Below are positions 58,353 to 62,597 of a DNA stretch of 64,000 bases, piece after piece; positions within the stretch are counted from its first letter, which is position 1, and each line of letters opens with the position of its first letter. A program made the position numbers and the translations under genes. The stretch comes from Lachnospiraceae bacterium. GTDB taxonomy: Bacteria; Bacillota; Clostridia; Lachnospirales; Lachnospiraceae. The DNA lies in NCBI GenBank assembly GCA_022510745.1, contig JAFLSY010000011.1, forward strand, positions 62,001 to 126,000. The letters run 5' to 3'. The notes under the pieces were generated by a model. It worked only from the letters and a program-made list of their open reading frames with translations, was not told the DNA's origin and did not search any database.

Positions 58353-58396
58353 GTGGGGCGGAAGAACAGAATACATTGAAAACCGTTTGAGTCTCG

Positions 58397-58473
58397 TGGT
58401 ATAATGATTCTGCTAACGCAGAATACATGCTGGTTTCACCGGCATGTCACCGCTTAAGCGGTGCATTATACCA
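58397..58473 (+). repeat. 77-bp cruciform-type inverted repeat (three hairpins in one outer stem)
   Basis: TGGTATAATG (58397-58406) pairs with CATTATACCA (58464-58473). Three hairpins fill the interior with no unpaired base between helices: ATTCTGC-TAAC-GCAGAAT (58407-58424), ACATGCTGG-TTTCA-CCGGCATGT (58425-58447, one G-T) and CACCGC-TTAA-GCGGTG (58448-58463). The outer arms are also extended -10 elements facing each other. It lies between the GNAT and the ExbB-like gene. Confidence 0.85.
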
Positions 58474-58530
58474 GCAGGCCGCCGCTTGAAAAGTAAATGC
58501 CGCTGTGCGGCGCTTCCTTTTCTGCGCTTG

Positions 58531-58539
58531 TGGTATAAT
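58531..58539 (+). promoter_or_regulatory. Extended -10 promoter of the ExbB/ExbD-like cassette
   Basis: TGGTATAAT repeats the sequence of the cruciform outer arm and lies about 30 bases before the first gene. No good -35 is seen, as is usual for extended -10 promoters. A hairpin GCCGC-TGT-GCGGC (58499-58511) lies just upstream. Confidence 0.55.
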
Positions 58540-58570: not shown

Positions 58571-59080
58571 ATGGATATCATTAAAACTTTCTGTGACAAT
58601 TTGTTTGGATATGATGGGCTTATCGTTTTAATGGCGATAGGGAATTTTTTAATATACTTAAAGGTTCGGGATGAAGCAAACAAAGTATACAGCCATTTTA
58701 ACAGTGCAGACCGAATTGCCAATCTGAATGATGAAGCCAAAAAGGTGTTGCAGGAGAATACAAAAAAGGAAAAGAAAAAACTGACTGCGGCTGAACTTTT
58801 GGATTATCGGGAAAAAACGAATAAGCATTATTCATTTTACTCAAATTTTACTACGATATTTCCGCTTTTGGGAATGCTGGGAACGGTTATATCCTTGATT
58901 TTTATGACTGATTCCATCGGCACGGCAGCAACAGAGTCTTTTTTTGCAGCATTGACGTCGACTTTTTGGGGAATTGTAGGAGCATTGATCTTCAAAGTAT
59001 TAGATGCTTCTATTTCATATAAAATTGAAGATAATGAAAAGCATATGGAGTATATGTTTAATCCAAACAGAAAGAATTAG
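58571..59080 (+). CDS. MotA/TolQ/ExbB-like proton-channel protein
   Basis: A 169-residue membrane protein with three predicted helices: about 14-30, 93-111 and 125-145. A charged cytoplasmic loop lies between the first and second. The paired helices FPLLGMLGTVISLIFM and FFAALTSTFWGIVGALIFKV are the channel-forming core of the MotA/TolQ/ExbB family, with the small-residue and Thr pattern of that core. It lacks the long extensions of MotA and ZorA. An AAGGAGAAAAG site precedes the ATG. The next gene encodes a matching ExbD-like partner 11 bases later. Confidence 0.8.
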   Translation: MDIIKTFCDNLFGYDGLIVLMAIGNFLIYLKVRDEANKVYSHFNSADRIANLNDEAKKVLQENTKKEKKKLTAAELLDYREKTNKHYSFYSNFTTIFPLLGMLGTVISLIFMTDSIGTAATESFFAALTSTFWGIVGALIFKVLDASISYKIEDNEKHMEYMFNPNRKN

Positions 59081-60276: not shown

Positions 60277-61144
60277 ATGTTTAAGAGTAGTAAAATTTGT
60301 CGATTTTTAGGTGATATGCTAGAAAAATTTGTTTCCATAGCTGACGACACGAAACTAGAGAAAATTGATGTTGCAAACCTCACAGAGTCAATGTCCCCGC
60401 TAAATTGCATGGGTGCCCGACTATTGAAAAGGATGAAGCCCCTTCCTTTACCTCATGACAAGAGGTTCTACTCTTGGAAACAATTCTTTAGGAATGCGAG
60501 AAGTGATAGTCGAACTTGTCATGATGCAAATGCTCCAGCAGTTATAACATACACAGGTGGAACAACGGATGGTTCTAAAGGCGCAATACTTAGTAGTAAA
60601 GCAGTGAATGCACTTGCTCAACAATATCTTGTGAGTGAGCGTAATTTGCATCGTGAGAGTACTTGGATGCAGGTATTGCCACTCTTCATCGCCTACGGTG
60701 TAACTAGCTCTATGATGATTGCCTTGGCCGTTGGCATGACACAGATAATAAGGATTCCCATGGTTGAATCAATAGCAGAATTTTGCAAAAAATTTAAGCC
60801 AAATCATGTTTTATACGGACCGGCATACGGGGAAAATTTGCTGATGATAACGAAGATTTGGACTTATCAAATTTCATTGCCCCAACTTCCGGCGGTGATG
60901 CTTTACGCCCTGCTGTTGAGGAAAAAATCAATCTATATCTTCAGTCTCATGGATGTTCCTGCCCTATTGTGAACGGCTACGGCACGACAGAAGTCGGAGC
61001 AGGTGTGGCCATTAATTTTCCTCATGCATATAAAAGCGGTAGTGTGGACAAGCGGTTCCAGATGTGGATAAAATTATTCGCAAGAGTGAGTTGTTTCAGG
61101 TTTCCACTGACACCATATTACTGCGAAACTCAGACGAAGAGGCC
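60277..61144 (+). pseudogene. Decayed AMP-forming ligase/acyl-CoA synthetase
   Basis: The adenylate-forming P-loop VITYTGGTTDGSKGA is in one frame. After a shift near 60840, IAPTSGGDALRP and VNGYGTTEVGAG follow in a second frame. A third frame carries DKIIRKSELFQ-like C-terminal sequence. At least two frameshifts and a lost start make it non-functional. The order of motifs matches acyl-CoA synthetases. Confidence 0.85.
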
Positions 61145-61549
61145 GTGAACCGGAATCCGCTGCATTTGGGCAGTATCTATCTTGTAGTAAAGGATTTTGA
61201 AAAATCCGTTGTATTTTATGAAAAGTTTTTGGGTATCAGTGTTTCTAACCGTTGCCGCAGCGGAAATAAGTTTGTTGAATTCCATATCGACAACAAATGT
61301 CTCTCCTTGATGAATGAAGAAAATATCATAGGTCATTGCACTTCTCCGGAAGGGGATTACAAATTTGTGCAGAATTATTGGGTGGAAGATTTACGGGCAG
61401 AACATGAACGGGTAAAGGCTCTGCAGATCGGAGAAGTGACAGAAATTTTGGAAGCGTACCCCACCTATCACTATTTTCATATGCGTGACCCGGACAATAA
61501 TGTAATTGAGGTAACAGGCGGTTATACACCACAAGATGGAGCAGAATGA
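61145..61549 (+). CDS. VOC/glyoxalase-family protein, start uncertain
   Basis: About 134 residues of a vicinal-oxygen-chelate protein: LHLGSIYLVVKDFEKSVVFYEKFLG at the start of the fold, KFVEFHIDNKCLSLM in the middle and YHYFHMRDPDNNVIEVTGGY at the end. A GTG at 61145 gives a normal-length protein, but GAAGAGG is only two bases away. The frame is open upstream into the decayed ligase, so a longer fusion product is possible. The original start may have been lost. It overlaps the AlkD-like gene by four bases. Confidence 0.7.
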   Translation: MNRNPLHLGSIYLVVKDFEKSVVFYEKFLGISVSNRCRSGNKFVEFHIDNKCLSLMNEENIIGHCTSPEGDYKFVQNYWVEDLRAEHERVKALQIGEVTEILEAYPTYHYFHMRDPDNNVIEVTGGYTPQDGAE

Positions 61550-62331: not shown

Positions 62332-62405
62332 AGGCAAAACGATAGTAATTGACACGTAGGCAAAGTGAAACCCCAAAGAGTGGCAGCTCTTTGGGGTTTC
62401 TTTTC
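62332..62405 (+). ncRNA. Candidate antitoxin RNA opposite a small toxin gene
   Basis: A promoter TTGAAA (62297-62302), 17-nt spacer, TATAGT (62320-62325) would start an RNA near 62332. It carries a repeat of CGTAGGCAAA (62329-62338 and 62355-62364). It ends in a 14-bp terminator stem GAAACCCCAAAGAG/CTCTTTGGGGTTTC (62367-62400) plus TTTT. It converges on the small peptide gene on the other strand and would share this terminator region. Confidence 0.55.
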
Positions 62406-62443
62406 CGTTAACGGTGGAGTAAACCGTTTAGGCTAGTTACCGA

Positions 62444-62530
62444 CTAATCATCTCCATCTAGCCATTTGCATTTGTAGTAGGCAACTACACCTGCTCCGAC
62501 AGAGATTACAAACGATAGTAAAAGGCTCAC
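62444..62530 (-). CDS. Small hydrophobic peptide, candidate type I toxin
   Basis: A 28-residue peptide starting at GTG 62530 and ending at TAG 62446-62444. On the minus strand GGAAGGGGG lies seven bases before the start. The peptide has one hydrophobic helix (SLLLSFVISVGAGVVAYY) and a charged end (KCKWLDGDD). The shape, the conserved-looking CKWLDG end and the convergent small RNA with repeats match type I toxin-antitoxin loci of the Fst/holin-like kind. I recognise the pattern from memory only. Confidence 0.62.
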   Translation of the reverse strand: MSLLLSFVISVGAGVVAYYKCKWLDGDD

Positions 62531-62597
62531 GCAAGCACCCCCTTCCTGTTGCCAGTATTGGGGCGGTAACGAATCTATGATAAACAAGAATTTGTAG

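Follow-up and report, generated by a model that had tools for sequence, protein, structure and literature searches.

A small structured repeat of Lachnospiraceae that probably behaves as a promoter-targeting mobile unit

Introduction

Integron gene cassettes carry folded attC sites and line up in same-orientation arrays joined at a short core, and putative mobile promoters are promoter-bearing sequences that spread within genomes. We know of no small non-coding repeats that choose working promoters as their landing site. According to the cited accounts, Correia elements, BrickBuilt and other MITEs carry promoters (PMC10969869), the internal guide sequences of IS608 pair with cleavage and target sites and so choose targets (PMC5934647), and REPs may be moved as folded single strands by TnpAREP (PMC8266576).

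In the window analysed here, a 64-kb stretch of Lachnospiraceae DNA, one copy is found of a small repeat whose structure is conserved. With a probability of about 0.72, we judge this repeat to be non-autonomous and to act as a mobile unit that targets promoters. Like the MITEs and promoter-bearing small repeats described in PMC10969869, the unit is small, non-coding, multi-copy, located upstream of genes, associated with sigma-70-like promoters and non-autonomous. Unlike MITEs as described there, its terminal repeats are direct copies of TGGTATAAT and not inverted, the 10-bp inverted arms being limited to one half of the unit (M1); it sits in existing -10 boxes and would regenerate them; and its fold is branched and maintained by covarying changes, with no parent transposon seen among the Y1 and IS110 families. 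With the IS200/IS605 and REP/TnpAREP systems, as far as their descriptions go, it shares a folded single-strand logic, an internal sequence that may pair with the target and a target beside the left end; however, most copy-bearing genomes are without a Y1 transposase, the box has nine bases instead of a tetranucleotide, and 49-50 pairs stand against simple hairpins. As in integron cassettes, the units of an array share one orientation and meet at a short core, and the candidate recombination site folds, but they carry no gene, come without an integron integrase over cut-off (0/13 genomes) and are scattered over many promoters. They differ from putative mobile promoters in that the promoter box is target and end alike. 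None of the IS608, REP and MITE accounts cited describes an element that sits in a -10 box and rebuilds it with a covarying inner strand, and a search of open PMC papers yielded no description of this repeat.

A repeat bounded by two extended -10 boxes

The original prediction concerned a perfect four-way junction at 58397-58473, whose 10-bp outer stem (TGGTATAATG/CATTATACCA) encloses three hairpins without any spacer or unpaired junction base, a fold on which RNA and DNA parameters agree. Three hairpins of 7, 9 and 6 bp had been announced; the outer two are as stated, while the middle one has 10 pairs, including one G.U, and not 9. That such a fold is very unlikely to form by chance was borne out, the 77 bases reaching -42.2 kcal/mol as RNA against -16.7 +/- 3.0 for shuffled versions (z -8.5, 0/200 shuffles as good) and a z of -9.9 with DNA parameters. 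These z-scores, together with the compensatory changes reported below, rule out a chance fold.

The unit is larger than these 77 bases. It occupies 58397-58539 on the + strand and consists of module M1, the four-way junction made of the outer stem and hairpins H1-H3 (58397-58473), a short linker, and module M2, a long hairpin with the core AAATG-stem-loop-stem-CGCTT (58479-58533), which carries a conserved A.C mismatch and a T.G wobble. At both ends it is bounded by the extended -10 box TGGTATAAT. The left box (58397-58405), present as a single copy in empty sites, also forms the 5' arm of the outer stem; the right box (58531-58539, P2), whose TGG terminates the 3' arm of M2, lies 31 bases ahead of a start codon. 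Between the outer arms lie H1 (ATTCTGC-TAAC-GCAGAAT, 58407-58424), H2 (10 pairs, 58425-58447) and H3 (6 pairs, 58448-58463), and the junction is closed by a third strand, CATTATACCA (58464-58473), complementary to the -10 box. Folded as a whole, the unit reaches a z of -6.6 as RNA (+ strand) and -8.0 as DNA (- strand).

The host promoter P1 (58376-58405, +), found by promoter scan, consists of TTGAAA, an 18-base spacer and TATAAT, matches the consensus at 11/12 positions and has TG before the -10; its own -10 box is incorporated in the outer stem. The predicted inverted pair of TGGTATAAT with a third copy at 58531 is indeed present (58397, +; 58473-58465, -; 58531, +), and TGGTATAATG with at most one mismatch is otherwise near chance in the window (8 against 4.8 expected). 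These boxes had been taken for two opposing extended -10 promoters; the inversion stands, but the inward-facing copy is best read as the strand pairing with the -10 and not simply as a promoter. Behind the unit, the first gene of the supposed ExbB/ExbD-like cassette (58571-59080, +) belongs to the MotA/TolQ/ExbB family (Pfam PF01618, E 1.5e-11), Pfam confirmation being limited to that gene, and anti-phage families were not found in the downstream cassette. Further on (60277-61148, +), ORFs overlap in different frames; by inspection they resemble fragments of a single, perhaps frameshifted gene for an AMP-binding (adenylating) enzyme.

A second copy in the same genome, upstream of a phosphofructokinase gene (assigned by inspection), is 90% identical across 58396-58539, from which it follows that the repeat runs from box to box. 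Two partial copies lie elsewhere in that genome, one from the right-hand part of the unit and the other, 34 bases long, from its left-hand part. Across copies, full units begin right after one extended -10 box (RTGGTATAAT) and end with another, and unit length is about 134-148 bases.

Distribution in the genus and beyond

Sequence queries returned matches in 13 of 61 relatives, with up to 17 in one genome. A covariance model, R1, built on 44 distinct full copies from 10 genomes, matched 84/138 Acetatifactor genomes at E<=1e-3 and 36/138 at E<1e-20, the weaker matches belonging in part to another family (family B, see below). Of 200 genomes sampled across the whole bacterial family, two from outside the genus (G286 and G305) had strong matches, and another two had weak ones. 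When named genomes were scanned for an exact pattern, 102 stretches emerged, and the records listed are assigned to Acetatifactor, Lachnoclostridium, Roseburia, Lachnospiraceae or Bacillota, with Acetatifactor muris DSM 23669 among them. Another unit follows directly in 33 of 125 cases, head-to-tail arrays reaching five units (G064:C61:121355-122041). Dispersed copies, tandem arrays and related species with and without the unit support the initial idea of a miniature mobile element, and the repeated copies and compensated homologues that the prediction had called for exist, the relatives showing many compensatory changes.

Several identities could be discarded. The phage and plasmid collections searched contained no match and viral contigs gave 0 exact pattern matches, which rules out a phage or plasmid passenger. 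Rfam had no match at the window locus, and 20 unit loci gave three tRNAs and nothing else, so the unit is not a known structured RNA family. A tRNA or tmRNA is ruled out as well, none being found in the 64-kb window. Elsewhere in the window (62356-62570, -), and thus within Lachnospiraceae DNA, a match to RF02442 (SpF66, a Streptococcus sRNA family) scored 48.9 bits, the cut-off being 42.

A fold kept by compensatory change

Standard pairs fill 93.6% of the pair cells in the 44 copies of the model, and 26/50 pairs have changed on both sides, in 185 cells, against a shuffled mean of 58 and 15-44 for slid versions. A second alignment (A3, 83 rows from 24 genomes) was assembled from copies fetched later and not used in model building; 95.4% of its cells are paired and 34/49 pairs changed on both sides (355 cells, against 97.4 shuffled and 14-96 slid), values that lean towards the model, to which this alignment was fitted. 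In A3 both-sided change extends to 8/8 modelled pairs of H2 and 6/6 of H3. Paired variants of H1 include GTTCTGC/GCAGAAC, ATTTTGC/GCAAAAT and TTTCTGC/GCAGAAA; in M2 we encountered GAAAAG/CTTTTC, CCGG/CCGG and GAAAATC/GATTTTC, with CCAC/GTGG or CCAT/ATGG at its base. Compensatory change keeps the fold of the unit, including both the M1 junction and the M2 hairpin. Within M2, the near-invariance of the A.C mismatch (retained in 123/125 copies) and of the T.G pair (121/125) suggests a putative recognition feature.

Promoter and gene context

Among 86 units with enough flanking sequence, 66 have a Shine-Dalgarno motif and an ORF downstream, no more than 250 bases from the right box (the median distance being 47), as judged by a crude ORF rule with a few spurious calls; by the same crude rule, 27/86 have such an ORF reading away from the left end, and most units have one orientation relative to downstream genes. 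A -35-like hexamer at the right spacing precedes the left box in 47/107 flanks that are not themselves units, against 293/2140 shuffled flanks (13.7%), and it precedes the right box, inside the unit, in 0/107. Host-side -35 elements with none inside the unit imply that units occupy existing promoters, and the right box, if functional, must therefore act as an extended -10 promoter. Its position relative to the genes is consistent with delivery of a predicted promoter by the repeat.

By inspection, the genes behind the copies are diverse and include pfkA, recA, cardiolipin synthase, a polymerase and response regulators. The proposal of a cruciform switch for the ExbB/ExbD-like cassette finds no support as such, Pfam confirming only the first of those genes, and an ExbB-specific switch is ruled out, the same unit preceding dozens of other genes. 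The structured RNA leader that had also been proposed is conceivable because the upstream promoter would transcribe most of the unit, but not as a gene-specific switch, since the genes concerned are unrelated. A broader version, in which a conserved cis-acting RNA leader between tandem promoters regulates the downstream gene by its fold and has spread by duplication and gene conversion, would account for the strong covariation, for a P1 transcript that would include H1-H3 and M2, and for units lying mostly upstream of genes in one orientation. It would also fit the excess of G.U over A.C on the gene strand (153 against 60), an excess that falls to 44 against 30 in the per-pair counts when three columns are removed; the folded molecule may be RNA or one DNA strand, and these counts fit either. 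We consider this leader improbable: the outer stem, conserved and covarying, uses the -10 box of the very promoter that would make the RNA, downstream genes are unrelated, close species differ in the presence of the unit, and Rfam offers no match.

Sites with and without the unit

At the pfkA locus, G083 reads ..ggaggaaatGTGGTAAAATAATaaaag..; in G000 the flanks are the same, but a single unit separates GTGGTATAAT from GTGGTAGAAT. Two close species, G116 and G067, differ by whole units at four loci. L358 has one unit in G116 and a lone TGGTATAAT in G067, and L359, ahead of a gene that looks polymerase-like by inspection, has one unit in G116 and TGGTATAATGATTTTGCTATCAC once in G067. L364 has two units in G116 and none in G067, which has at this place a 42-base leader similar to the beginning of the unit; L367 has two in G067 and none in G116. 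Upstream of an MBL-fold gene, three units in G015 correspond to one ATGGTACAAT or TATGATACAAT in G000 and G083, and relatives carry one TGATATAAT at the cardiolipin synthase gene. The recA locus fits more poorly, the relatives having TATGRTACATTT, in a terminator-like stretch, instead of a clean -10, and at the cob locus relatives are too diverged for an empty-site comparison. The window's own copy has a matching flank in G083 with no ExbB gene behind it, and hence no comparable empty site.

Empty sites usually carry a single -10 box at the junction. Empty sites have the box once and filled sites have it twice, a pattern that looks alike whether the box was duplicated or brought by the element. 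The empty and filled pairs would fit gain or loss, as deletion between the 9-base repeats would also yield an empty site.

Slippage and local recombination clearly also act on the units. In L442 the copy is shortened and its middle lost with respect to a full copy in another species. Among other reduced forms, L443 and L444 (G116) consist of M1 only, the L443 joint falling at a repeated ACAGATATC, where the sister species G067 has M1 plus M2 (L365 and L369); L026, L062 and L066 also look like M1 only. One could ask whether such processes suffice, with slippage and unequal crossing-over between boxes and copies, no special mover and an old origin of the present spread. The shortened copies joined at small repeats (L442, L443, L444) and the near-identity of array neighbours speak for this, as do the unit-like resident leaders at L359, L364 and L367, where similarity to the unit's first 18-42 bases already exists in the empty site and homologous spread from resident remnants is therefore possible. 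This account leaves unexplained the dozens of separate loci with different flanks and the differences at pfkA and L358, whose empty sites are unit-like only in and around the box, and we regard it as unlikely.

Agreement of the box, the unit end and the inner strand

The box has one variable base, the third of the TATAAT hexamer and base six of TGGTATAAT. At this base, the inner strand complements the left box in 117/125 copies, the third strand of M1 thus tracking changes of the box. A variant left box occurs in 18 copies; the inner base matches it in 16 of them, and the right box is the same in 14. Fisher tests over the 125 copies, which ignore relatedness, gave 1.6e-13 for left against centre and 5.3e-13 for left against right. 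The left-right agreement survives within-genome shuffling of the right ends (69/79 isolated units, p 0.003). It is absent at positions -3, -2 and +9, and an apparent agreement at -1 (p=0.003) was rejected as a genome effect (p=0.33 within genomes), implying that the base there belongs to the host on the left and to the unit on the right. The block shared by both ends is confined to the nine bases TGGTATAAT.

A third strand that complements the box, with 16/18 variant boxes matched, would be compatible with pairing of an internal guide with its target, and the agreement among target box, end of the unit and inner strand suggests that pairing may govern the choice of target. On the boldest reading, the unit would belong to a new class of mobile DNA whose members home in on promoter -10 boxes by pairing: while the box is single-stranded, for example on the lagging strand or in the open complex of RNA polymerase, the inner strand ATTATACC would recognise it, and the unit would then insert there and rebuild it. 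We hold this to be rather unlikely; if true, promoters would be both the target and the ends of the unit.

Guide-like pairing also calls to mind a non-autonomous single-stranded hairpin element of the IS200/IS605 or REP type, moved by a Y1 HUH enzyme and carrying an internal guide that would pair with the target box. Its subterminal hairpins, a target kept 5' of the element with the same box at the 3' end, and an internal strand that is complementary to the box and covaries with it, like the guides described for IS608 (PMC5934647), would all agree with such an element. We nevertheless find it hard to credit: the Y1 HUH transposase (PF01797) had no match in 10/13 copy-bearing genomes, including the copy-rich G015, G032, G034, G035, G013 and G009, and the fold is far bigger than that of REPs. 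In the window itself (2316-2697, +), two adjoining fragments of a Y1 (HUH) transposase are found, apparently broken.

Candidate movers and a model of insertion

Other candidate movers fared no better in the 13 copy-bearing genomes. The DEDD transposase of IS110 bridge-RNA elements (PF01548) passed the cut-off in 4/13 and had no match in 7/13, including G116 and G067; reverse transcriptase (PF00078), the enzyme expected of a group II intron or other retroelement, occurs in 6/13, with none in G000, G015, G116, G067, G023, G145 and G062; and the integron integrase (TIGR02249) was over cut-off in 0/13. Neither these three nor the Y1 HUH transposase fits the occurrence of the copies, and all four were rejected as movers. 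Weaker tyrosine-recombinase matches occur in 13/13 copy-bearing genomes and in all 14 controls, and this co-occurrence is meaningless because every control genome gives the same signal.

The box-to-box anatomy, the whole-unit differences between relatives, the promoter context and the three-way agreement of the box lead us to read the unit as a non-autonomous, promoter-targeting structured repeat. In the mechanism that we propose, a recombinase or transposase acting in trans on a folded strand would insert the unit at a target that must match the unit's own end. Insertion would never leave a gene without a promoter box, as the target is a -10 box and the unit brings a new one. Afterwards, transcription from the old P1, which retains its -35, should yield a leader rich in structure, whereas the new box P2, an extended -10 only, would fall about 30-60 bases before the start codon. 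Against mobilisation in trans, no mobile intermediate, autonomous relative or mobiliser was found.

The concrete form of this promoter-targeting reading that we favour, tentatively, is cassette-type recombination, in which a tyrosine or serine recombinase would integrate a circular unit at a TGGTATAAT core, much as happens with an integron cassette. We prefer it because arrays share one box per junction. Head-to-tail arrays with one core per junction, the single orientation, the restriction of left-right identity to the core, a folded site with a conserved mismatch and the presence of some kind of tyrosine recombinase in all genomes tested would be in keeping with it. It remains doubtful in view of the missing integron integrase, the absence of a cassette gene and of a platform, and a tyrosine-recombinase signal that is equally present in every control genome.

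Related repeats and significance

Other repeats were encountered alongside the unit. One of them, M3, is likewise dispersed and measures about 70 bases. It follows a -10 box, with its start at TGGTATAATgaCCTTATTCAAGG, has a terminal hairpin that ends as the ATGG of the next box TATGGTATAAT, and forms chains with the unit of the window in which the two have a box in common; it was seen at L075, L045, L048, L258, L263, L286 and L296. Family B, a distant repeat in genomes of the genus with weak R1 matches only, yielded 11 units (L378-L405, e.g. L383:1495-1621, L396 and L404). Its plan comprises a box, a reversed hairpin of the AAATG/CGCTT type and a second branched domain, closed by CAAGC/GCTTG and lying between ACGAG and CGAGTTT, and it also occurs in tandem. 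Short forms made of the box and H1 alone (about 25-40 bases) stand before a Shine-Dalgarno motif and start codon at L019, L020, L028, L064, L065, L067-L069, L072 and L073, several of them in G009.

M3 and family B are leads that share the plan of the unit and, should the homing reading be true, would be further families of that class. The unit itself gives the impression of a mobile element of a new, promoter-seeking variety. By landing in a -10 box, keeping it and adding another, such a unit would rewire gene expression directly and without gene breakage, in a genus of the mammalian gut.
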